From: Rhododendron vialii
Taxonomy: Eukaryota; Streptophyta; Magnoliopsida; Ericales; Ericaceae
Assembly (NCBI RefSeq): GCF_030253575.1
Contig: NC_080557.1
Coordinates: forward strand, 39,787,001-39,851,000
DNA: 64,000 nt
Reading direction: 5' to 3'
Shown here: one piece after another, positions 4,715 to 64,000 of the stretch
How positions within the stretch are numbered: position 1 is the first letter of the stretch
How the letters are laid out: each line of letters opens with the position of its first letter
Translations under genes and position numbers: made by a program
The notes under the pieces: generated by a model
What the model was told of the DNA's origin: nothing
Databases searched by the model: none
What the model saw: the letters and a program-made list of their open reading frames with translations, nothing else

Positions 4715-5029
4715 TGTTAGGAATGCTTTGTATTCTTTAGTCCCACATTGGTTAATTATGTTGTTCCCGTTTTTGTAGCCTATTATAAATAAGGCTTTTG
4801 GGGTACTTCTAGAAATGATCTTTTGGGCTTTCATATTGTGGCCTTTCTAGAGTTACGGATTATAGCCGGCTCTTTGTATCTCTTCTTCACGTTGGTTAGT
4901 GAATCCTCTCTCTCCTCGCCCGTGGACGTACCCATCTTGGGGAACCACGTATATCTTGTGTCTTTGTGATTTCTTGTTTAGTTTTCAATTTCTCGTTCTT
5001 AGCTTGCATTCATAGCGTTCGTTACAACA
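4715..5029 (+). repeat. 5' LTR of the copia element
   Basis: 315-bp repeat from TGTTAGGAAT to CGTTACAACA. A TATA-like TATTATAAATAAGG near 4780-4793 could be the element's promoter. Confidence 0.97.
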
Positions 5030-5032
5030 AAC

Positions 5033-5045
5033 TGGTATCAGAGCC
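5033..5045 (+). other. Primer binding site of the copia element
   Basis: TGGTATCAGAGCC begins three bases after the 5' LTR. This is the classic plant copia site complementary to the 3' end of initiator methionine tRNA. Confidence 0.9.
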
Positions 5046-9124: not shown

Positions 9125-9439
9125 TGTTAGGAATGCCTTGTATTCTTTAGTCCCACATTGGTTAATTATGTTGTTCCCGTTTTTGTAGCCTATTATAAAT
9201 AAGGCTTTTGGGGTACTTCTAGAAATGATCTTTTGGGCTTTCATATTGTGGCCTTTCTAGAGTTACGGATTATAGCCGGCTCTTTGTATCTCTTCTTCAC
9301 GTTGGTTAGTGAATCCTCTCTCTCCTCGCCCGTGGACGTACCCATCTTGGGGAACCACGTATATCTTGTGTCTTTGTGATTTCTTGTTTAGTTTTCAATT
9401 TCTCGTTCTTAGCTTGCATTCATAGCGTTCGTTACAACA
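9125..9439 (+). repeat. 3' LTR of the copia element
   Basis: Matches the 5' LTR at all but one of 315 positions by eye, and is followed by the target-site copy AAATG. Confidence 0.97.
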
Positions 9440-9920
9440 AAATGCGTAACGTTTTTAGTATCTTTTTGTTAGTAAAAACGAGATGGTAAAATACATTAAA
9501 TTTTTAGTATTTTTTGTTCACTCACATCTCTTGTAAGCCAGGTAATTATCCGACCTATTCCTTAAAAATAGTCTGAAATAATGCCCGTGCTAAACTAGAT
9601 AAACTAGTAGATTAATTTTCCAACCCTTGAGGTCAACCCATGACCTGACGTATGGAAATTATGGGCCTCAACAACTAGTTGGTTCTTGTCTTGCAAGTAG
9701 TTTAGGACTAGTACTTCTTTAAGCGGTCAGAAATCAGAATAACGGTTGTTCTTTTTTGAGATTTGGTCTCCAAATTTACATTTAGAGCATGTACACAAAT
9801 GAAAATGTATTTGACCTCTTCAACGGTGCATTTTTTTCATTTTATCTACTCAAATCTCTCTCAATCTTACACCAATACTCTTTACTTTACCTATCATTTA
9901 TTAAAATACTATTTCTTTTT

Positions 9921-47431: not shown

Positions 47432-48569
47432 CCGAAAGGGTTGCGCTTTACTGTTCGATCGAGACCTGCTTCGGCCGGAGGCTAAAGGTCCAAATTTGTC
47501 AGGTGCAGTACAGCCCATCAAGAAAGGGAAAGGACCACAAGATGCTAATCATTTGGCAAATCCGACAGTTACCTTTCACGCCAGTTGCTTTCCAACACGT
47601 TCTGTCGTTACCGGAAGCAATATGTGAACAATGAACATGTGTGAACCTAAGGATTAGTCGGGGTGGTTCGTGGGTGCACTCCCCACAAAGTTGGTAGGAA
47701 TTCGAATTTAGCAGTCAAGCCACAAGGAAAATAATTTTCATGTTAATTTCTAGTATCAATGTGAATAGTCTGTCTTTGACCGAATTGGAAAAGAATTCAA
47801 CGAAGTGCACGCAAGCTGAAATAGACAATCCTATCATCTATCTATTTTAATATATAAAGGGAGAGCACCCTTTGGTGTCACCTCTTTTTTGAAGCTGTAT
47901 AGACTTTTGATTGTCCAAAAATACCCTTTTAAAACTGAAGTATTTCAACTATGAACAGTTTCTATACTTTGTTACTGCAAGGGTAAAGAGAGAATTTAAC
48001 TCTGAATTGAAACTATATGTCTAATAACTGCCAACAATCTCCACCATTTCGGATAAAAAATAATGTTGAAAAAGAAGAAAAAGAGCTCTGCTAACAGCAG
48101 AGACAATTTGCAGAGAACCACGCAGAGACAAACGCGTTTGGCCCCATTTCGGGTTCCAAAAAAATCTAGAAAAATATCCATAAATTTTTGAATATTATTT
48201 TATGGAGCCCTGTAAAAAATCAGCTCTAGTGGATATCGGTAAGTATTATTTTTTGATTCGTAGGGGCGAAACTGCTCAGCTCGCCCTTACGAATCAAAAA
48301 GTAATACTTACCGATATCCACTGGAGCTGATTTTTTACAGAGCCTCATAAAATAATATTCAAAAATTTATGAATACTTTTTAAGATTTTTTTGGGACCCG
48401 AAATGGGACCAAACGCGTTTATCTCTGCGTGGTTCTCTGCGAATTGTCTCTGCTCATAGTTTTTTTGAAAAAGAATTCCACCATTTCTCCTTCAATCTAT
48501 ACAACCACTGACCAGTAATGATGGCACAATTACATATGGTAATTTCTGTAGAAGGAAGGTAAATTGCAG

Positions 48570-48615
<46 letters not shown>

Positions 48616-49349
48616 AAAGTTCTCTTTCAACCGAAAGGGTTGCGCTTTACTGTTCGATCGAGACCTGCTTTGGCCGGAGGCTTTAGGTCCAAAGTTGTCC
48701 GGTGCAGTACAGCCCATCAAGAAAGGGAAAGGACCACAAGATGCTGATCATTTGGCAAATCCGACAGTTACCTTTCACGCCAGTTCCTTTCCAACACGTT
48801 CCGTCGTTACCGGAAGCAATATGTGAACATGTGTGAACCCAAGGATTAGTCGGGGTAGTTCGTGGGTGCACTCCCCCACAAAGTTGTTAGGAATTCGAAT
48901 TTTGCAGTCAAGCCACAAGGAAAATAATTTTCTTGTTAAATTTCTAGTATCAATATGAATAGTCTGTCTTTGACCGAATTGAAGAAGAATTCAACGAAGT
49001 GCACGCAAGCTGAAACAGACAATCCTATCATCTATCTATTCTAATCTATAAAGGGAGAGCACCCTTTGGTGTCACCACTTTTTTGAAGCTGTATAGACTT
49101 TTGATTGTCCAAAAATACCCTTTTAAAACTGAAGTATTTCAACTATGAACAGTTTCTATACTTTGTTACTGCAAGGGTAAAGAGAGAATTTAACTCTGAA
49201 TTGAAACTCTATGTCTAATAACTGCCAACAATCTCCACCATTTAGGATAAAAAATAATTCCAACATTTCTCCTTCAATCTATACAACCACTGACCAGTAA
49301 TGATGGCACAATTACATAAGGTAATCTACAGAAAGGTAAATTGCAGAAA

Positions 49350-50037: not shown

Positions 50038-51992
50038 TATGTTATATGGTTACACTTACTACATCGTATGGCTACACTGACTACACCTATTACTGATATG
50101 TTTTAACAATCAATGATTGAAATCAATTGTTGATATGAACTCATACAATCTAAAGATTAGGAACAGTTGGGAGCATCATAGCCATTGCCTTTGTTAGGCG
50201 GAGGGTAATAAAAATATAATGACAAATAAATTTGAATTTTTTTTTTTGCGGGTATCAATTCTATTTTTTCTTGAACATTGATACAGTTTGTACCGATTAT
50301 TCTACGCCTAATGGCCGGAGGTTAGCATTTCGAAAGGAAAACATCAACATGTGACACTCTGGGTGTGGGGCAAAAGTGGATAAAAATGGTGGCTTTAGGC
50401 GCTGATGTGTTTTCTCGTCAGTTAATACTAATCTCCGAGCCTTATCCATAAAGCGTAAGTCCAACGGCGGCCTACCGTTTTCACTAGTCCGATGTTCGGG
50501 GCCCTGTATAGTGACCTTATCACGCTCTTCTTACCGCGTGACTCACACTGCCTAACAATTTCACATTCTTTTTTTTTTTTTAAAATGAACTTTTCTCATT
50601 CTTGTTTGGGGTGGGGGGAAATTTGAACCTCCTACACCCTCCGAAAATACGAGGAAATTAGTGATACCAGTTATTTGTAGAAATTGAAAATATTTAACAT
50701 GCTTTCTTGTAAATAAAACTTTGGTAGCTATTATGGCTGAGCACTTTATCGTTTTAGCAATGTGTTTTTTTTTTTTTTTGACAAAATAATTGCATTCGTT
50801 ATTGAAATGATCAAAATTATTGACGAAAGAGAATGCAAGCTATTCATTGAAATTATTTTTCATTTTGTAAAATTTCATATTACATTTTATACATTTTCGT
50901 GATAATAAATAATTCTTTTAAAAGCCTCACGATTGAGCTTTGAAGTGCACAAATTATTCAATACTCTCACAAGTGGACCTAGCATTGACTTGTAAGAGGG
51001 TTAGATCATGCTTCGATACTAATCTGTTTTTCATTGTTTATTTAGTAATGAACTTTGAATTGAACTATATGCTACATTTTGTATTGTGCACTTGTCAATC
51101 CTAGTGCTCAATTCTCAATGTGAGCCCAGTCTCTCGATCGACTACATTTAAAGAGATTAAATTTTCGGTGTTTCGATTAAAAATATAACGACCTCAGATC
51201 ATAAATTTATCGTGTGTATATATATAGTATGATTCATACCCATTGTGAGGATGGTATAATTAATTGTTTTGGAGTATCAGATATCGCTTCACCATTACTC
51301 CCCTCCAATAAGTCAATATTTAGCTTATTGTCATTATAATATTAACTCATTTTTCTATAATAACAAACAAAATTACGCAAAATCAAAACTCCGTGCAGCA
51401 CACGACTGCCTAAGGGAAGGTGGGATTTGTAAATCCTCCCTCATCCTCTCACATCCTCGTCCCGAAACTGCCCCCAACAGTTACCATGGTTCATAAACAC
51501 AACTTCATGTGAAAATCCACAAAGAACATGTCCAACAAAAAAAAAGCATCACCCTAACAGCCGTTGTTTTCCCGCTACATAAAAGCCCACACCTCCACCA
51601 TCTCCTGTTCACCGCAGCTCCGGCAACCACCTCTCTCTGTCTCACATCCGTCGTGGAGATTTATTTCGCGATTCCGGTAAGGCACTAAAAAATACCCATC
51701 AACACGCGTTTCCGTTTCTTTCTGGTGCGGACAAACCACCCATATTAGAATACTCCAATGATTGGTTCGTTCCAATAAATATATCACCCTTAACAGCCGT
51801 TGTTTTGCTGTTAGTTTTGAATTTTTAATAATAAGGTAGTCCAGTCGTTATGTGCCTGTTCTACTATTATATTGCGATTGGTGTGTTTTTTGGGGGTAAA
51901 ATATTGCAATTGGTGTTGAATTTGATAACATGTTGACAAGGTTTTAGATCGTGAAAGAAGAAAAGGCTGAATCTTTGGGGAACTGGGAAAGA
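50038..51992. other. Intergenic and CHY/RING gene upstream region
   Basis: AT-rich sequence with T-runs near 50571 and 50766. The segment at about 51560-51990 presumably includes the promoter and 5' UTR of the gene starting at 51993. No other gene is supported. Confidence 0.45.
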
Positions 51993-54424
51993 ATGGGGAC
52001 TGAATTTGAGCATCCATCATCCTCTCATGGGTTTACCAAAAATGAGTCTGCAATGGAGCTTGAATCCAGAAATTTCGGGTATTTCTTCTCAATTCGATCT
52101 CTTCTTCGTGTTTTTATTCGGAATAGTGTATTCTCCTTACTGATTTTGTGATGGGTTGGGATGTTTAGGTGCATTCATTACAGGAGGAAATGCAAAATCA
52201 GGGCACCCTGTTGTGATGAGATTTTTGATTGCAGGCATTGCCATAATGAAGCAAAGGTGTGGTCTTTATTCTTTTATTTGTTGTTTTCCCTTTTGCTCTT
52301 TTGTGTTTTCCCCAGTTGAGATGAGATGAGATTAATTCCCTAATTCTTAGCTGCTAAAATTCCCTTTTTCGCATCTATTGATGAACAGAACACACTGGAC
52401 ATTGATCCCGTTCGTAGGCACGACATTCCGCGACATGAAATTAAAATGGTATGTTCATGGCTGCCAAATAATGGAAATTCCCTTCTCTATGTTCATGACT
52501 TATTTTTCAATTTTCATTCAAGGTTTCTAAGTGTTTCGTATTTTATGTGTTTTTCAGGTCATATGCTCCCAATGTGGCACTGAGCAAGATGTGAGTCTCC
52601 AAAAGAATTTATATTTTAGTGTCAAATAAAACAAAAGGAAATTTATTTTTCTTATCCTCTTGGCTAACCTTCTCTTCTTACTTCTTAGGTCCAACAAAAT
52701 TGCATTAGCTGTGGAGTTTGCATGGGGAAGTACTTTTGTTCGAAATGCAAATTCTTTGACGATGATGTGAGTTTCATCATGTTATCCGTTGTTTGTTCTT
52801 CAAAAATTTGGTAAATCTGCTTGATTAAAGAAGGTTATGCATATCAGGTTTCAAAGAACCAATACCACTGTGATGGATGTGGAATCTGCAGGTGAAATTC
52901 TCCGCACCAATTCTCTTTTATTCTTTTGTGTACTTTCAGTAGTTAAAGGAAATTTAGAGAGGTTTCAATTAAGCAAGAAAAACAGGTAGAGAATGAATAG
53001 ATATTCTTTCAAAAATATCCCCATCTTTACGTTCTACTAACAAAGAATTGTACGGATATACAATATAATCTCTTTGAAAAATTTAGGATTCTGCAACTGC
53101 TTTTTTTTAGCTAAGCGAAATAATTGCCTCAAACTTTTGCCGATCTTTTGGCCTTTTCAGTCATTGGCATCCATTTTATGGATATTTTTGTCTGTGGTTG
53201 CTTTTGCAGAACTGGAGGCAAGGAGAATTACTTCCACTGCAACAAGTGTGGTAAGCCAAGCTAATTTTCTATTTCTGTTAGCACTAAATAAAGCTACGTT
53301 TGCATCAAGGATTTGAAAATGGGTTTTGCAAGGAAAAGAGGGATTCAAAATGAAGAACACAGCCTTGAGGGTTTTGTTTTCTTTACAACTGAGTAGAGCT
53401 TTACTGTAATGGATTGCAGGGTGCTGCTATTCAAATGTGATTCAGGATTCCCACCATTGTGTGGAAAGAGCAATGCACCACAATTGTCCAGTTTGCTTTG
53501 AGGTAATTGAAAGCTTAGACGTAAAAATCTATTCACCAAAACACAAGTTTTACAGAAATGTATCAATTCTCAAAGGGACATGAATACACATCTGCAGTTC
53601 CTATTCGACACGATAAAAGAAGTCACCGTCTTACCTTGTGGCCACACGATACATTTGGAATGTGTGAAAGAAATGGAGCTACATTTCAGGTACGAACTCC
53701 GCGAATAGAAATCTCAGCTGGGATGCAGGAATCTTACATATGAGTTGGGAATGAGGTTTTTATGCTTTCTCAATATAAGGTTTGGAACGGACCGGGCACG
53801 AAAGTGATTCACGATCAAGTATCCAAACTAATACTACCTAGTAATCATGTGCCTATAATCTCGTAATATTGCGAACCCTGCAGATATTCATGCCCAGTTT
53901 GCTCCAAATCCATCTGTGATATGTCCAGTGTGTGGGAAAAGCTTGATCATGAGGTATTTTTCTTGAATACCTTTGTCTTCTTTGTTTCTATTTGTAACTG
54001 TTTCCAAAAGTTATGTGCCAATTAACATTCATTTACAAAAACTGAATTCAGATTGCGGCGACTCCAATGCCACAGTTCTACAAAAATAAACTGGTAAGTT
54101 ACAAGGAATCTCTTCAAATAAACTAAAATGAGCGATCATTTGATTAGCCTGCATTTTATTATGTTGCAATGGATTTTCTTAGAGCATGCGCATCACATAC
54201 ACCAATTGATGTATGTATTCAATCACAGCTCAAACGAATGCTTTGTACGTGTTCAGGTACGAATCCTCTGTAACGATTGTGGAGAAACATCGGAAGTTCA
54301 TTTCCACGTTGTCGCACACAAATGCCAAAAATGCAAATCATACAATACCAGACAGATACAGGGAGGCTCCACTACTTCTTGCCCCTCGAGGATTGCTGAG
54401 ATTGGTGAGGTGACTGCTGATTGA
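51993..54424 (+). CDS. CHYR1: CHY- and CTCHY-zinc finger RING E3 ubiquitin ligase
   Basis: Twelve exons, all GT-AG and frame-consistent: 51993-52078, 52169-52256, 52389-52448, 52558-52590, 52689-52766, 52848-52891, 53210-53250, 53420-53502, 53598-53689, 53884-53953, 54052-54093, 54257-54424; 294 residues. A CHY zinc finger runs from [15 protein letters not shown] through [12 protein letters not shown]. The CTCHY finger ([20 protein letters not shown], then [16 protein letters not shown]) and a RING-H2 (CPVCFEF...[11 protein letters not shown]...CPVC, about residues 166-208) follow. A zinc ribbon, [19 protein letters not shown], closes the protein. This architecture is that of Arabidopsis CHYR1/RZPF34 and MIEL1, cytoplasmic/nuclear E3 ligases in ABA, drought and MYB turnover (family knowledge). 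Which of these is the true orthologue is not resolved. The ATG at 51993 is the first in frame. Confidence 0.95.
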
Positions 54425-55618
54425 ATCATGAGTTTCAACGGATGACACAATTGTTCGACTCCCGAGAATTCGAAGATTGTTTTGAGAGAAGGGGAGTATT
54501 TTTTTTTCAGATATAGAAGCAGAGGGCAGAGGGATTGTCTCTGGTATAATGTTCAGCACTAAATAGACCATCCTGTGTACAGATCATTTCATAGTAGTCG
54601 AAGTTTTTTCGAGGCTCCGCGGGTTTAATCCATCAGTGTTAAGTGGATGTATTGTTTCGTTTTCCAGAGTGCCCATGTGGTTGTTGGACCGGCCCACTAC
54701 TCGAAATCTCAAACCGTCCTTTTTAGCCTGTATTGCAATAATGCATTGCGGCGTTGTAGTCAGTCATAGTGCGCCTAAATGGGATCATTCAAGATTTTAT
54801 CATCATGGGGTGAATTGTTCATTTTACTTTACTGAGGTCGCTAAAGATGAAACCCTGATGTTGACATCTCAAAACGCGTAAAATGAGTGGTTCTATAAAA
54901 TGAACAGTTGTAACCATGATATTGAGAAGGACTCAACCGAGGTGCGCTAACACGTGACATTGGGTTAATGAATGTCTGAGTTATTGAGTTGAGTTGAGCA
55001 GAAAGAAGTTCAGGTTTGGGTATCCAAAGCTTCTATTCCACAGGGTCCCGACAGAAAGTCCTCCCCGCGGGGAGTCCCACAGCTCGTAATTGTGAATAAA
55101 AACAGGGAGGAAATGTTGGTAGGGAAGTAAAAGGTGTGTTGCTCTCTTTGAATTAAAGTGAACATGGCCACATGGGTTCTTTTGGTAGTCACTCACGTGT
55201 GGTACAACTTTTGAGAGAGGGAGAGAGAGAACAATGCAGCCCTTTCAATACTAACATACACGACAAGATCCTAGTAATTGTTAGCCAAATCTTTGAACTG
55301 CTAAAGAAAGAAAAGGGCATTCATGGCATACAAAGAGAGCAATTAGTAAACCCTTTGCATTGCATGAATCAATTTGTTCTTTTTTCTTCGGTGCTTGGAG
55401 ATTCGGGTACAGCCCATGGGATTAGGAGCTCAAAAAGTGCTAAAAAAGTTGTAGACACTCATGCCACGATTTACCCTATGCCTTTCCCCCCGTGAAAAGT
55501 CTACCCTATTGAGTGAGTTTTTTAGCCTTTTGACTTTGAAATAGGACCGTTTTGCCTTGTCAATTGACAGAATCCCATGTCTACCCTATAGTGTGTTTCT
55601 CAAGAGAAGAAAGAAATA
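54425..55618. other. 3' flank of the CHY/RING gene and intergenic
   Basis: Presumed 3' UTR, then non-coding sequence. No further gene is supported. Confidence 0.45.
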
Positions 55619-55866
55619 CTCCATCAAATTTCTCTTCCTCTCTATTACGTACTTTATAATTTTTTAAAAATCGTCCACCTTTTGAAAAATTACTTTTTAA
55701 AAGTCCAATTTATTTTTTCCTCCACTGTTGTATTTAAATTTGAATATGGGAATGAAAGCAAACAAAGGAAATAGTTCAATTTTCTCTTATTGGCTAGTCA
55801 AAATGAACAATAATTTTGAAATACCCCTAACAGGAAAGACGGACTAAAATTTCAAAACGGAAGGAA
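55619..55866. mobile_element. Stowaway-like MITE
   Basis: 248 bp starting CTCCATCAAATTTCTCTTCC and ending TTTCAAAACGGAAGGAA, with TA at both flanks. A truncated copy is fused to the CHY/RING gene fragment at 60795-61017. Confidence 0.7.
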
Positions 55867-55959
55867 TACTTCAGTAAAATAAAATAAAAACAGCTTTAAT
55901 TTCCCTTCCTATTGTTTCGTTCCCTTTATCTTTGATTCTTTGTTAGTTTCAGTTCATTC

Positions 55960-56385
55960 TAGGCCTGTTTATAGACCAGATCCGATTCGGATCCGATCCG
56001 AAAAAATCCGATCCGGATCCGGATCCGATAATGACAATCCGAAATCCGATAATCCGAATCCGGTAATTCAAATACGGATTCGGATCGGATCGGATTAAAT
56101 CCGTTATCAATCCGAATCCGAACTTTATTTTTTTTAATTTTTTAATTTTTTTTAAAAAACAGTAAATTTTTAATTTTGAAAAAAAAAATATTTAAGAAGT
56201 TTTATTTTAATTTTTTTAGATTTTTTTTGAAAAAAAAACAATTTTTTTTTTTGCTAAAATTTCTGAAGTAAAAAAAGTTTTCGGATCGGATTCGGATCCG
56301 GATCCGGATTACCACTATCGGATTTGAGTCTTATCGGATCCGGATCGGATTTGGGTCTTATCGAATCCGGCCCATTGACAGTCCT
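55960..56385. mobile_element. Mutator-like MITE made of ATCCG repeats
   Basis: A perfect 9-bp target duplication, AGTTCATTC, lies at 55951-55959 and 56386-56394. Ends are TAGGCCTGT and ACAGTCCT. The first and last 100 bp are arrays of ATCCGA/ATCCGG words in opposite orientations, giving a strong fold-back; the middle is A/T homopolymer-rich. Nine-base duplications suggest Mutator-type transposase. Confidence 0.85.
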
Positions 56386-56394
56386 AGTTCATTC

Positions 56395-56926
56395 GCATTT
56401 TATTTCAGCTTCTCTTTTAAATCAACCTATGGAAAATCATATTTCTTCTCTCCTTTCTTTGCTATTATCAGCAAAACCAAACAAGATAGTCAAACATTTT
56501 TCCTAGAATCTCTCACTTGGTCTATCCTTCTCTTTCCTTTTACAGAAAACATACCAACTTTAGGCTGCACACATAATCGAGCCAATTTTTACCAAATTTT
56601 GTCCCTATAACACAGTTTTTCCCCTAGTCTATGATTGCTTAAGCTACAAAGAGCAATGCCCGAACCACACTCACTTTATACACCCACACACAAGTGTGTT
56701 CTTGTGAGTGGGCTAGCATTTTTTAAGCTACAAAGGAACTACTGGGGACAATTGGCTCCATAGCAGAACAGTAGCTGAAGCAACTCAATACAGCGTAAGA
56801 AAAGACTAGTAAAAGTACAATTCACTCCTACCAAAAAGCTGTATTACTAAGAGCAAAATTCAAAATATAGGGGCAAGTTCCCTCACACCACGCCTGAAGC
56901 CCCATCCCCAAAAGCAAATGAGGGGT
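56395..56926. other. Intergenic and SOSEKI 3' flank
   Basis: No coding sequence recognised. The part next to 56927 is presumably the 3' UTR of the minus-strand gene. Confidence 0.45.
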
Positions 56927-59665
56927 TTAATCCCAGGAGTTTCCACTAGTTTCATAAGGTGTTGATTGGATTATAACCCGAGCTCCAGAAGCAAGCCTGT
57001 TGAAAGGAAATCAAACAAAAACACAAGAAACAAAAAAGTCTCAACAAACTTGAACTGGAAAAGCGGCAAAATATTAGTTCAATGCCTAGAGCAAAATGGG
57101 GAAGAGCAGGTACTTAACTTTCTTCTATTTTGATCACCTTTTCCTTCTCTTCCCTGAAAGAATCTAGCCTATTCGATTGTTGCTTCGCGGTGGAAGGCTC
57201 TGTGATCCTTTGGCTGCTGCCGTCGGACATGCTAGGGGTTATGGTTCGCGAGCTATCGGCTCCATCAGAGGAGATCCTTGGTCCCTCAGAAACAGGGGAT
57301 CTCATTGATTCACTTCTTGGATGCTTGCTTAGCGAAACCTTTATTGACAATGGGATGCACTTCGACCGCACCAAAGTCTCCTCTTTGTCTGCAGCTAAAT
57401 CATATTGCTTACTACTCCTGCGTTGCAAATTTGTTTCCAATTTTCAGTATGGCAGAGAGCAAGAACAAATACCATACTTAAGCACAATGTTTTGTCAAAA
57501 AATAGTCCCCTACTATCAAGAGAAAGATCATATATCCACCTCAAAAAGTGAAGATGAACGTGTGCAATTACCTAGTTTTGGGCAAAGGATGAATCAATTT
57601 CACGTCATCGCAATTTAAATACCTTTAAGTCTTGAATCACACCACTTAAGAATTCTAAATGGAAGCTTAATGCCAATGTACAAAAGTCCACTAGGTATCC
57701 ATTTGGGTCTACAGTGTACAAGAAGTCTCCGTACTTAGTCTTCCAAAGCATTTGAAACAAGTTAATTTTCTTGTACATCTAAAGGATTCTTGTTTCAAGA
57801 AATAACCCACTACGATTTCTTAACAAAGATCATTTGGAGGTTCTTAACAATCTATCATTACGCCTACGACTGATTTGACCCATAATAGATTCATTCTAAA
57901 GGGTTACAACTGACCCTTGGATATTGTTCTAATCAAATTAGAATTTCCAATTATTATTTATGTATCTCCAAAACCTAGGGTACACCAATTTTCTCAAACC
58001 ATCAAATCAGTAGACAGCGTACATTGACAACATTTGTATGTACCATCCATCGTTAGCTCTAACAGAGACGAGTATATTCCTTACAATTATTGCATCATAA
58101 ACTCTTTCCTAATTAACACAACGTTTGGGATGGAGATGGAGATGGAGATGGAAAGTGGTGGTAAGAGCATGGGACATTTTCCCAAGTTGTATGGTACTGT
58201 GGTTGGCAGTGTGGAAAGGAGAGGAAGGAAGAAATGATTTAAATTAACACCTCCTAAAACTGGAGCCTTTCTCACTCCTAAACCAAATAGACAGTGATGT
58301 ACGCCACGGGGTGCAAAGGACAACTCTTTAACACTAGATTATACAAGGAGTCGTTGAAAGCAGACTAACCTGTCAGCGTTGTATGAAGATGATCGTTTCA
58401 GAGCACTAAACCTGTCTCCTTCCTCTTTGAGCATAGTTTTCTCAAACAAGCTTCCGCTGAAGTATTCCTTATCTTCCAACCTCAGACCCATGAGCCTCGG
58501 ATTCTCAATCAAGCAATCAAGCTCTCCCATCACATGCGATGTCGAGAACAAAGGGGAGGGGAATTTTGAATATGGAAAACTTGGCCTGTAGGTAGGGATG
58601 AGGCTAAAGCTGTGATCTTTCACTGAAATTGACCCACAGGAAATTAGTTGCATCAGCATGTTTGAGGCCTTGAGCTTTGTATTCAATGGCATCCGACATT
58701 CCTCCTCTTCAAGTATCCTAAAGCTGTTGGCCTTCCGAGCATCGGCCCTGATAAGAGATTCTAAGGTCGCAGTCTTCCCACCTGATGATGAAGTACTGGA
58801 TGAAGGTGGAGGTGGGGAAATCGATTCCCTAGAAATATCAGAAGACTCTTTCACTTGTGGAACCCTGTTTTCACAAGATTCAGTAATCTCAGGTTCTAAT
58901 GACCCATCATCAGTTGAAACACCCCTTGTGCAAGTCTCTCCAACTTTATTAGTTCTGATTACAGTTTCTTCGGTCTGAGTTGAAGCATCAGCTAAACCAT
59001 CACCCTTGTGGACTTTGTGCTCTGCTAAGCTTAGACAACCATTCCAGGGGGAACTTTTCCCATCTCTATACCCTGGAGACACCCCAGATGAATCAGTAAG
59101 TCGGACTGGAGGAGAAAGCTCGTCGTCTTGGGAATGTTTTGAATCTCTCCCATTCATGCTTGAAGAAGATGAAGAATCATCATGAGCCCTCAAAGGTGCT
59201 GGTTCCGGTAATTGTCTTTGATTCTTTGATTTTGTAACTTCAGCAGGACTGAAACGACCTGGAGACAATAAAAAAAAATTGGAAGGGAAAAAGAAAGTTT
59301 TCATCCCGTGCTGAGATTATGAAGGAAAAGAAAGAAGAAAAATAACTCGAAGTTACTGGTAACTATGAAACCAAGTACTTGCTTACCTGAATGACATTCT
59401 TCGAAAAGTTCAGAACCCTTCAGAACGTACTCACTTCCCTGAGCGGGTAAAATTAAGTCATCTTCACAGATATCATGCCACACAAACCCATTCTTGTAGC
59501 TTCTGTAAGGGAAATTGGCAAACAGCATGAGAAAAAATTTCCAGAAAAATTTAAGAAGAAGAAATTAAAAAGATTCAGATATCCCACGGTTTAACCTCTT
59601 GCAAGACCACGAGTACATTGAAGCCATGCCTCTGCCTCTCAGAACATTAAGCTTAACAATCACAT
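56927..59665 (-). CDS. SOSEKI-family (DUF966) polarity protein, N-terminal exon missing
   Basis: SOSEKI proteins localise to cell corners and polymerise through an N-terminal DIX-like domain. Exons on minus: 59665-59596, 59502-59387, 59258-58370, 57417-57119, 56996-56927. The first begins in phase after an AG and encodes [20 protein letters not shown], the end of the conserved N-terminal block. The next gives [20 protein letters not shown] and [12 protein letters not shown], diagnostic for DUF966. The large third exon is Ser-rich with [17 protein letters not shown] and [15 protein letters not shown]-type motifs. The fourth holds KCIPLSIK; the last [17 protein letters not shown]. The DIX-like exon (YYLSRNG-type) was not found up to 64000, where nested transposons occupy the expected place. 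A start at the ATG at 59637 would give a DIX-less protein. The fourth-to-last exon junction does not keep frame. Confidence 0.85.
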
Positions 59666-59837
59666 CTACACCACAAGCAAATTTTCAAACCCTATATGTT
59701 AGAACCAGATTGACCAAGAAATTTTCTTCTTATATAAGAATTCACTCACTCATATGCATATTTTTACCCTAAAGCCATCCTAGCCAAAGACATTATACGG
59801 CGCAATCTCACCAAAGGAATCCCCAACCCTAACCGCC

Positions 59838-60458
59838 TCTTTGGATTGTGAGAAATTAAGGATGCGATAAGAGAGTGAAGCTCTTTCTCACCAAATCTCA
59901 CTAGAAAGGGAAAGGAGCCAATCACTTTTCCCTCCCTTTCTCACTATAGTACTCAATCCAAAAGAGTAATTTGGTAAGAACTAGTGGCGGAGCCAGGATT
60001 TTGCCCCCAGGAGGCCGGCTTAATAAACATATTTTTTATCGGAACTTATACTTATTATATCACAAGGTTTTTGCTTTCCAATACATTACATTTGTACTTT
60101 GAAATGATTCTCGCCTAAAATGCAACTAAATTATACCAATCGATTTGTTTTATTCTTTAGGCTACTTCTACTGTCACGTGTTTTTTTTTTTAATGAAAGA
60201 AATTGAGAAAGGAGAATGTAAAATAACCGGGTTTTTATCAAATCAAACCAAAATTATCAAGATTATAATTAGCTATACACAAATAATTATCAATAATATT
60301 CAAAATCATGTTTATACAAAATAACATTTTAAAACTCAGACACTCAGGCAACCGGGGCTGGGGGTGGGCCCCCCGGGCCCCAACATAGCTCTGCCCCTGG
60401 CAAGAACATCTACTCCTTTCTTTTCTTATCAAATCCCTCAATCCAAAGGGGCTGTAAG
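59838..60458. mobile_element. Nested MITE pair upstream of the SOSEKI exons
   Basis: The outer element starts CCTCTTTGGATTGTGAGAAA and ends ATCAAATCCCTCAATCCAAAG, terminal inverted repeats of a MITE. It is interrupted by an inner element at 59982-60401, flanked by AAGAAC on each side. The inner ends AGTGGCGGAGCCA and TAGCTCTGCCCCT are imperfect inverted repeats. Confidence 0.55.
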
Positions 60459-60517
60459 CCAAATCTAGGGCCGAATTACTACTTTGGCAACTCTAATTTA
60501 AATAGAGATTTTAGCCA

Positions 60518-60520
<3 letters not shown>

Positions 60521-60585
<65 letters not shown>
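60521..60585. repeat. (TC)n microsatellite
   Basis: Long uninterrupted TC run, the longest in the window. Confidence 0.95.
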
Positions 60586-60587
<2 letters not shown>

Positions 60588-60654
60588 CATAGCTAAAGCC
60601 AAAAAAAATCCTCAAAATACTACCATTAAACCTTGTACAGCAACATAATCTTGT

Positions 60655-60793
60655 TTTTTGTCGATAACTTAGGCGTCCAAGCCAGCTTCCACGCACATAT
60701 GCATTTTAACATCGTAAAATGCCTGCGATTTAGGGGTCGGTCTAATGGTCTAGGCCTGGGACCTAGGATTTGCTCGCTCCTAAGGTCTCAGGC
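60655..60793. mobile_element. SINE family A fragments in opposite orientations
   Basis: An antisense body piece, CTTAGGCGTCCAAGCCAGCT at about 60669, resembles the SINEs at 11205-13325. It is followed by a sense head, GGTCGGTCTAATGGTCTAGG at about 60736, with a B-box-like GGTCTCAGGCTC. Together they look like two broken copies joined. Confidence 0.45.
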
Positions 60794-60794
60794 T

Positions 60795-61017
60795 CATCAA
60801 ATTTCTCTTCCAATAAATTTTCAAAATTCTCCTCCTCTTGAAAAATTACTACTACTTTTTAAAAGTCCAATTCATTTTTTCCTCCACTTTTGTATATAAA
60901 TTTGAATATGGGAATGAAAGCAAACAAAGAAATAGTTCAATTTTTTCACATTGAATAGTCAAAACTGACAAGAATTTTGAAATACCCCAAGAAGGAAAGA
61001 TGAACTAAAATTTTAGA
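60795..61017. repeat. Truncated copy of the 55619-55866 MITE
   Basis: CATCAAATTTCTCTTCC to GAACTAAAATTTTAGA follows the MITE at 55619 closely but stops before its right terminus, exactly where the CHY/RING homology begins. Confidence 0.8.
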
Positions 61018-61626
61018 ATGTTTGAGCATCCATCATCCTCTCATGGGTTCACCAAAAATGAGTCTGCAATGGAGCTTGAATCCGGAAATTTCGGGTATTT
61101 CTTCTCGAATTTGATATCTTCTTCAAGTTTTTATTCAGAATAGTGTATTCTCCTTACTGATTTTGTGATGGGTTGGGATGTTTAGGTGCATTCATTACCA
61201 GAGGAAATGCAAAATCAGGGCACCCTGTTGTGATGAGATTTTTGATTGCAGGCATTGCCATAATGAAGCAAAGGTGTGGTCTTTATTCTTTTATTTGTTG
61301 TTTTCCCTTTTGCTCTTCTGTGTTTTCCTCTACTGAGATAAGATTAATTCCCTAATTCTTAGCTGCTAAATTCCCTTTTTTCGCATCTATTGATGAACAG
61401 AACACATTGGACATTGATCCCGTTCGTAGGCATGACATTCCGCTACATGAAATTAAAATGGTATGTTCATGGCTGCCAAATAATGGAAATTCCCTTCTTT
61501 ATGTTCATGACTTATTTTTCAATTTTCATCCAAGGTTTCTAAGTGTTTCTTATTTTATGTGTTTTTCAGGTCATATGCTCCCAATGTGGCACTGAACAAG
61601 AGTCTCCAAAAGAATTTATATTTTAG
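61018..61626 (+). pseudogene. Partial CHY/RING gene copy with a borrowed start codon
   Basis: Copy of exons 1-4 of the gene at 51993. Exons 61018-61094, 61186-61273, 61401-61460 and 61570-61626 keep the original splice sites of the first three introns. The parent N-terminus is lost; an ATG at 61018, formed at the junction with the MITE piece, is in frame (MFEHPSS). A 5-nt deletion removes the donor of exon 4, so the frame runs into the old intron and stops after SPKEFIF. The predicted product is 93 residues with only the first half of the CHY finger, with R to Q and R to L changes (CIHYQRK, DIPLHEI). Probably non-functional, but an expressed fragment cannot be excluded. Homology to the parent ends at 61680, where an LTR-like element begins. 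Confidence 0.85.
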
Positions 61627-61680
61627 TGTCAAATAAATCAAAAGGAAATTTATTTTTCTTATCCTCTTGGCCAACCTTCT

Positions 61681-63628
61681 TGTAACGTTCCGATTTTTGG
61701 AAATGTTAATTTAATAAATTTTTAACATTTATTAAATAGAAATGAATATAAGGTCATTACAAACTCCAAAAATTTATAAATTCAAATTACATCTGTCTAA
61801 CAAATAAAGGTGAGCACTAAGGTAATATACTTTTCGTATCCTTATTTTTTCTCAGCAAGTCTCTGATCAGTATCATACTCTTCTGACGGATAGTACTACA
61901 CCTATACATCTCCAAACTCTCTGGCATAAGATGCCAGGGCCACAAAAAAATAGCACCGTGAGCAATTAAGCTCAATAGCTAACTCCTACCCCTATGTCCC
62001 ATACTTTAAAAAAAAATAATATATAACTTTGCAAGGTAAAACTCAGAGATTTAACAGTTCAACAATAAATAACAATTCAACAAAAGTGTCAATGTCTTTT
62101 TAGAGTCAACGCAGCATATCGTAATTCGTGTCATCATTTTATCAATATTGATTTCACTTTCCAATTTATTCTTTTCGAGTACTGGTTTCGCTAACCGTCT
62201 TTCAGATTCCATTGGGCTCCCAGGCTAATTTATTCCATCCAAAAGCACTGATTCCGCTAACCGTCTCTTTCAGATTCCATCGGGCTTTCAGTCTTATTCA
62301 TTTCATTAGCTCTTTCACCATTTTCACACGACACTAGTTCTGCTAACCATCATTTCAGATTCCATTGGGCTCCTAGGTCACACACATTCGAGCCATGATT
62401 CCGCTAACCATTTCAGATTCTATCGGGCTCTCATGCTCACACGTGCACACCTGAGCCATGATTTCGCCGACCAGCTTTACTGATCCCATCGTGTTCTCAT
62501 GCTCACACACGCATACCCAAGCCATGATTTCTGCTAACCATTCTTTCATATTCCATCGGGCTCTCATACTCACACAATTATTAATCTTTTTCACATTTCA
62601 ATTTCTCATCTCTTTCCCTCTCGTTTCTCGTGTCTCGTAAACATGCATCATTTTCTCGCGTTCACATTATTTTTTCAGAACTTGCTAAAGTATGTGATAA
62701 TTAATAATCGTGCTTCTAAAATAAATAAAAAAATACAAGAATACAGTTGCACGAAATTTAGAATTTTAACATGTCAATTGTCACTTCAAATAATCATGCA
62801 ATAACAGGAGATTTCAAACTCCAATAATTAACCTTCAAGTCATACTTTTCTATATCTAATAATAAGAATCAACACCAGTGCACTCGACATTTCCCTTTTT
62901 TTCCATCAAGGTACCATTTACTAGGTCCAGGAGTTAAACTTCCATTGAACTACCTTATAATTTCTAATTTCAATATTTAACTATATAGCACATCAACATT
63001 AGATTTAGGTGAGTAGGTAAGAGGTTTTTACCGTTCTTCTTGGCGGTAGCGGGTTACAAATTCGTCGAGTCAAAAAAAATGAACTGAGTGTCGTCGCCTC
63101 GGTTGGAATTTGGCAAAAAGAAAAGTACTTTTCTTTTTACTACGATCCTGAACAACTTCTAGATTTTGGAATTGAAAGATCGAATGGTGGTTTAAGTGGC
63201 GGTGGAAAGGTACGGTGAGAATGTGGTGGGCTTGAATTCAATTCTTTTTCTCCTGCTCTTTCTCACAGCCGAAACTCCCTCTCTCTTTCCCAACTAATGA
63301 AGCAAGTGGAGTGGATAATTGGTAATGTGAGAAATGAGGGAGCAGCCATTGGTATTTTTAGGCCAATGAATTCATCATCTCTCTCTTCCTCTTACCCGGT
63401 TCTCTCTCTCTCTTGTCCCATCCATAAATGCATCCTATATAATAATATATATTTATGGATTATGCTATGGTGTTCCCGGTCATTTTGGGGACACCGTAAT
63501 TTTTGGCATAATTTTACCATTAGGAGCATAACTAAAATTAATTACAAGCATAACCAAGGACTATCCATAAAACCAACCAAGGCGTAACTAAACACAACCA
63601 AGGCATAACTAAACACAACCAAGGCATA
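61681..63628. mobile_element. LTR-like sequence with minisatellite
   Basis: Begins TGTAACGTTCCGATTTTTGG, the TGTAAC start common in plant LTRs, directly at the edge of the CHY/RING copy. Contains GCACCGTGAGCAATTAAGCTC, a phrase echoed in the element starting at 63629, and a tandem array at 62183-62576. I see no gag or pol domains. The right border is uncertain. A 21-bp tandem repeat of ACCAAGGCATAACTAAACAC lies just before 63629. Confidence 0.45.
62183..62576. repeat. Minisatellite of about 60-75 bp units
   Basis: Six diverged units each hold a GCTAACC-type block followed by TTTCAGATTCCATCGGGCTC. In the last three, CTCATGCTCACAC and GAGCCATGATT links are added. The units are 50-80% alike by eye. 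Confidence 0.7.
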
Positions 63629-64000
63629 ACTGTAACGCCCCCAATTTTGGGTACGTTAAATGAGGCATTTATTATATAATAAAGAGAGTTTGGCTCATTA
63701 TTACATCATAAATATATCATAAGGAAAGGGTACATTTATTCAACAAGGAAGGAAACTAGGATTCCTAACACTACTCTGCTTGCTCTTCCATCCTAGCAAG
63801 CTCCTCTGCTCCAAAAGCTTCCACGGTGTACATCTTATCCTGTTCATCTAAGAAGTCTGACACATTATACCGGCGTCGCCACCCATATAATATGTCAGGG
63901 TCACCAAAAAGGCAACACCGTGAGCTACAACGCTCAATAGGAAATCCTTACCCACCAACCTTAATTTACAAACAAGGCTATAATAAAGCATCAATTTCCA
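63629..64000. mobile_element. Start of a second LTR-like element, cut by the window edge
   Basis: Begins TGTAACGCCCCCAATTTTGG and includes CAACACCGTGAGCTACAACG, matching the design of the element at 61681 without being identical. It runs off the end of the window. Confidence 0.45.

Follow-up and report, generated by a model that had tools for sequence, protein, structure and literature searches.

Chimeric or truncated genes arise from tandem duplications in flies, as described in Drosophila yakuba (PMC5460883). In barley, filler sequence and short matches are reported at double-strand-break repair joins, together with copy-number changes (PMC3706897). As far as the consulted parts of these reports go, the locus described here resembles the partial-gene tandem duplications of D. 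yakuba in its breakpoints, which lie within genes, and in its join, where gene copies are headless or chimeric, and it resembles the barley joins in its filler DNA and the short matches at the break. However, the present locus is in a plant, carries a scrap of a MITE in the join, is old and decayed rather than segregating and is known here from sequence. The consulted part of the barley report concerns deletions and insertions, whereas a tandem duplication involving two genes is found here. Plant Stowaway MITEs are a dispersed short family with an end similar to that of the MITE in the join, which differs in having both ends cut, and the term 'start codon' does not occur in the consulted text of the review on them (PMC12595863). 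One of the two genes has the zf-CHY, RING and zinc ribbon domains in common with the CHYR / RCHY1 (Pirh2) ubiquitin ligases; the N-terminal domain of human Pirh2 binds six zincs, and its degron groove is formed jointly with the RING (PMC10148881). In comparison with these ligases, the second copy of the gene lacks the start region, the RING and the ribbon.

All coordinates follow the numbering of the window, the whole stretch of 64,000 nucleotides that was analysed (C1:39787001-39851000 of a genome of 532.6 Mb in 13 contigs). The sequence past the window edge was examined up to position 153500, giving 153.5 kb in total. A manual splice model of the parent gene has 12 coding exons in a single open frame of 294 aa. 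Pfam found zf-CHY, RING and zinc_ribbon_6 within this one frame, which assigns the gene to the CHYR-type E3 ligases, and the solved structures matching the protein are those of RCHY1/Pirh2 (PDB). The locus is very probably the product of an 8.8-kb tandem duplication (52005-60800), the junction of which was sealed with ~220 bp of MITE that brought an accidental ATG, after which the second CHYR copy decayed.

Table 1. Positions of the genes, duplication units and inserts at the locus (window numbering, continued past 64000)
Feature	Position	Strand	Basis
Parent CHYR-type gene (CHY finger, RING, zinc ribbon)	51993-54424	+	manual splice model, Pfam, PDB relatives
First duplication unit, from codon 5 in exon 1 of CHYR into SOSEKI intron 1	52005-60800	+	homology blocks to 61021-123500
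Headless SOSEKI copy, exon 2 onward	57114-59665	-	exons 2-4 open; Pfam SOK; last exon from ORF 57114-57440
Stowaway-like MITE fragment, cut at both ends, that fills the duplication junction; end reads ATG (61018-61020)	60801-61020	+	alignment, genome matches
93-codon frame, four exon pieces (61018-61094, 61186-61273, 61401-61460, 61570-61626)	61018-61626	+	splicing
Left end of second unit, with copied CHYR exons 1-4 and the larger part of intron 4	61021-61680	+	homology to parent
LTR-like insert in copy intron 4, 6,109 bp	61681-67789 (window part 61681-64000)	+	TG..CA ends, target duplication
Mutator-like insert	69067-81449		inverted ends of 117-122 bp at 86%; 9-bp target duplication AGAGAATAA on both sides

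Comparison of 61021-61680 with 52005-52673 on the same strand showed that 632 of 670 columns are identical (94%, E=0), which excludes a chance match. The homology begins at parent position 52005, codon 5 of exon 1. Introns 1-3 are retained in the copy with 94-97% matched sites, rather than being absent as in a processed (retroposed) copy. The original prediction, a MITE scrap joined to CHYR exons 1-4 through copying at the DNA level and not through retroposition, is thus accurate inside the window. Splicing from the ATG at 61018 through the three kept introns gives 93 residues, with the stop ending at 61626, in agreement with the predicted CHY frame with intact introns and no RING. The Pfam match of this peptide to zf-CHY stops at profile position 54 of 68, and zf-CHY is the only family that Pfam found in it, the RING and the zinc ribbon being absent from the frame. 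A 5-bp deletion at 61599/61600 (GAACAAGAGTC) takes out the exon 4 donor of the copy, and the frame therefore extends 8 codons into intron 4 sequence. It is this deletion that had earlier been taken for the junction; the sequence across 61017/61018, where the ATG begins, is AATTTTAGAATGTTTGAGC.

The parent interval 52005-60800 is collinear with seven blocks between 61021 and 123500, amounting to 7.0 kb of homology dispersed over 62.5 kb. The distal blocks lie at 82868-82985, 118419-118467, 118485-119027 and 119104-123500. The last of them (parent 56386-60800; 4,422 columns, 97.9%) bears SOSEKI on the minus strand (Pfam SOK, PF06136), and the right edge of the homology falls at 60800/123500. A search of the 153.5 kb found SOSEKI exon 1 at 123911-123716 only, indicating that the duplication edge falls in SOSEKI intron 1. 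Searched against the genome, the SOSEKI DNA matched at these two places and, over 101 bp, at one other. The two copies are adjacent and on the same strand, their blocks are collinear and there is one novel join, as in a tandem duplication. Because each breakpoint cuts into a gene, the complete CHYR is found in the first unit alone and the complete SOSEKI in the second alone, and at the junction headless copies of the two genes stand back to back without the own 5' end of either gene. The discrete MITE/gene fusion that had been proposed is instead the junction of an 8.8-kb duplication that also carries SOSEKI. The duplicated 8.8 kb would have reached from CHYR codon 5 into the first intron of SOSEKI, which is convergent with CHYR, and the ~220 bp of Stowaway-like MITE sealing the junction would have been captured as filler by double-strand-break repair or template switching. 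At the left edge, CATCAA (6 bp) is common to the unit edge and the MITE near 55620; no obvious bases are in common at the right edge. The first unit alone has an insert of ~430 bp (~55955-56390) with GTTCATTC on both sides as an 8-bp target duplication, and the second unit has the empty site AGTTCATTAGCATT. The SOSEKI intron 1 sequence also includes a perfect (TC)32 microsatellite at 60521-60584.

An LTR-like element beginning at 61681 is what ends the homology of the copy at 61680. Beyond it, at 67790, the match to the parent picks up again with parent base 52674, the immediate neighbour of the last left-hand match (52673). Thus, the copy is interrupted by an insert and not, as had been proposed, truncated at exon 4. 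A copy continuing intact beyond 64000 had been named in advance as the observation that would speak against a truncated fusion; homology does go on past the window, but the copy is broken there. The outer insert starts with TGTAACG, ends with GTTACA and is flanked by a perfect 5-bp target duplication, CTTCT. A second LTR-like element is nested in it (63631-67027) with its own perfect 5-bp target duplication, ATAAC. Both have the TG..CA ends and 5-bp target duplications of LTR retrotransposon derivatives. Neither a terminal repeat pair (E<=1e-15) nor an ORF of at least 130 aa, and hence neither paired LTRs nor a polyprotein, was found in 61681-67789, so that both inserts look like solo LTRs. 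After the insert follow copy exons 5-6, in which an exon 6 cysteine that is kept in human Pirh2 is changed from TGT to TAT. Parent 53142-54589 (exons 7-12, encoding the RING and the zinc ribbon) has no match in 61021-153500 at E<=1e-8, and the copy does not have the domain set of a CHYR-type E3 ligase. The 3' flank of the copy runs to 69066 and is followed by a MULE-like insert of 12,383 bp (12.4 kb). Inverted ends with a 9-bp target duplication are a trait of Mutator-like elements, and both are present here; this insert contains one ORF of 208 aa (L009) and none of at least 130 aa in L010. In the continuation, a 0.96-kb direct repeat (80573-81532 and 81990-82950, 92%; L011) spans the right end of the MULE-like insert and part of the CHYR 3' flank, both of which are thereby present twice. 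The decay of the copy would comprise loss of the exon 4 donor, the LTR-like inserts in intron 4, loss of the exon 6 cysteine, loss of exons 7-12 and the MULE-like insert, and the second CHYR copy is most likely a decaying pseudogene.

The divergence between the units differs among the blocks: 4.05% in A+B (45/1110, CHYR exons 1-6), 9.3% in C1 (7/75), 14.7% in C2 (68/462, the 3' flank), 9.3% in D (10/107), 2.6% in E (14/543) and 1.55% in F (68/4392, the SOSEKI block). A single event without later exchange predicts uniform divergence, and the range from 1.55% to 14.7% does not fit this. The unevenness counts against a single-event account, and no date is therefore given for the duplication. Conversion between the units, or several events, are guesses at its cause. 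Methylation-driven mutation was considered for block C2 and rejected, as changes from parent C/G to copy T/A (20) do not exceed the reverse (17) in the manner of a C-to-T excess, with 31 transversions. BLAST identities of 94% and 85% for the blocks flanking the insert had raised the suspicion of gene conversion in exons 1-4, which was also rejected; the ungapped divergence of the two blocks is equal (27/659 and 18/451), and a 44-bp insertion makes up much of the BLAST difference. Conversion elsewhere than in these two blocks is possible. The SOSEKI copies differ at 11 codons in exons 2-4, 8 of them with amino-acid replacement, as expected if one copy were free.

The MITE part at 60813-61013 matches the other MITE of the window (55656-55852) at 85%, and at least 35 matches to the fragment, itself included, are found across the genome. 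Its end resembles GGGACGGAGGGAGTA, the end sequence of Stowaway elements. It is thus a dispersed short repeat with the terminal sequence of its family, as in a Stowaway-like MITE. However, complete inverted ends and a TA target duplication are absent from the junction MITE, in which the final bases after the ATG are missing and the left end is replaced by unit sequence. With both ends cut, the fragment did not arrive by normal insertion. Its likeness of only 85% to the nearest relative in the window points to no donor for the filler and counts against the duplication account. For the alignment, 20 loci were fetched, one of which is the copy and one the other MITE of the window. The copy was compared with 19 rows (the other MITE and 18 loci); one row (L026) repeats the place of another (L024), leaving 18 distinct rows, and L022 is the copy, in the second unit, of the other MITE. 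At the ATG columns the distinct rows read ACG in nine, ATG in five, ACA in two and ATA in one, with a gap in one. The alignment crosses these columns ungapped. The junction end reads ...AGAATG and continues with TTTGAG in the copy, whereas most MITE rows continue as GAGGGAGTA or similar, bases that the copy does not have. The ATG at 61018, predicted as an in-frame start at the junction, is most plausibly part of the MITE, differing by a single C-to-T step from the most frequent reading ACG, and the MITE end would have supplied it in frame by accident. Among the papers that searches on MITE-supplied start codons listed, no title or abstract opening describes such a case, which is not evidence of absence in print.

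The ATG could also be the ancestral CHYR start. The parent start codon is at 51993, and AGAATG occurs in the parent at 51990-51995 and again in the copy; the join would then have formed at this shared hexamer, and the nine bases of codons 2-4, a whole number of codons, would subsequently have been lost in frame. This is rather unlikely, as it requires one extra event, the MITE alignment is ungapped at these columns and other MITE copies also have ATG. Whichever source the ATG has, the frame itself may be considered as a functional chimeric mini-gene: transcription would enter from the SOSEKI intron and the MITE, and the product, half a CHY finger of 93 aa, would compete for the partners of the full ligase. 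The open 93-codon frame with its three kept introns and the A at -3 of the ATG are consistent with this proposal. So is the substitution pattern: five of the eight exon substitutions are assigned to the copy branch and three to the parent by polarisation with L012-L018, in which three sites (parent 52421, 52432 and 52584) rest on L016 alone, and the five on the copy branch alter a single amino acid. Neutral simulation gives at most one such alteration with P=0.013, a value obtained in one of several tests and from five changes, of which two are neighbours in the same codon. The result speaks against plain neutrality and may weakly suggest constraint or conversion in the past. However, sequence upstream of the copy consists of SOSEKI intron 1 and the MITE, with no native promoter, and the own 5' ends of both genes are absent. 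Three ATGs precede the frame within 60780-61017 (60908, 60914 and 61000, with frames of 16, 14 and 2 codons), the zf-CHY match is incomplete and the remainder of the copy is decayed. In 85% of neutral simulations, five substitutions leave the frame free of stops, and its openness therefore says little for function. Differences in block A are alike in coding and intron sites (8/252 vs 19/404, p=0.42). For the Ka/Ks comparison proposed for copy and parent, the eight exon substitutions (four synonymous, and four non-synonymous in three codons) are too few. A functional mini-gene is thus very unlikely, and it is less likely still that the MITE end sealing the duplication serves as the translation start of an expressed 93-aa half-finger that dampens the ligase via its partners. 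If true, a dominant-negative would have been born in a single repair event.

The tandem arrangement could be an assembly artefact in which two haplotypes of one locus were set in tandem, and the divergence of blocks F and E would suit alleles. However, blocks C2 and D are too divergent for this, the join carries 220 bp of foreign MITE, the units are without each other's outer flanks and the 153.5 kb examined has no N letters, making an artefact improbable. Four loci that start at the same query base had raised the alternative that a mobile element (Pack-type or Helitron), and not a tandem duplication, captured the copied sequence. Seven other loci (L012-L018) have CHYR fragments inside parent 51990-52941, and ~1-2 kb including flanks is common to L012-L015. 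L012 (3986-4597), L013, L014 and L015 have the same internal gap and look like one mobile family that captured CHYR; L016, L017 and L018 are also CHYR fragments. Flank comparison and the collinear SOSEKI rule this origin out for the copy, leaving it scarcely conceivable: the MITE flank of the copy has no match in any of the six loci that were compared first (L003-L008), the fragments of L012-L016 are 83-85% like the parent in long alignments compared with 94% for the copy, L012-L015 have three extra residues and skip exon 4, and the copy runs on collinearly into SOSEKI.

A tandem duplication sealed with transposon filler is thus the preferred reading, and it provides a base-resolved case in which such an event leaves headless copies of genes together with a chance start codon, with the redundant copy afterwards filling with transposons. 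A transposon-filled duplication junction with a decaying headless copy is an ordinary genome accident. The locus also advises caution, as a copy seemingly truncated at a window edge may merely be interrupted, and the unequal divergence of the two units is a loose end for specialists. Across the window, Rfam gave no match at the gathering score. A bacterial-type promoter scan found 5 candidates against 3.4 expected and was set aside, a bacterial consensus being uninformative for a plant. Elsewhere in the window, direct repeats are present at 47432-48064 and 48631-49258 (635 columns, 95%) and at 4715-5034 and 9125-9444 (320 bp, 99.4%, 4.4 kb apart), the latter possibly the LTRs of a young retrotransposon.
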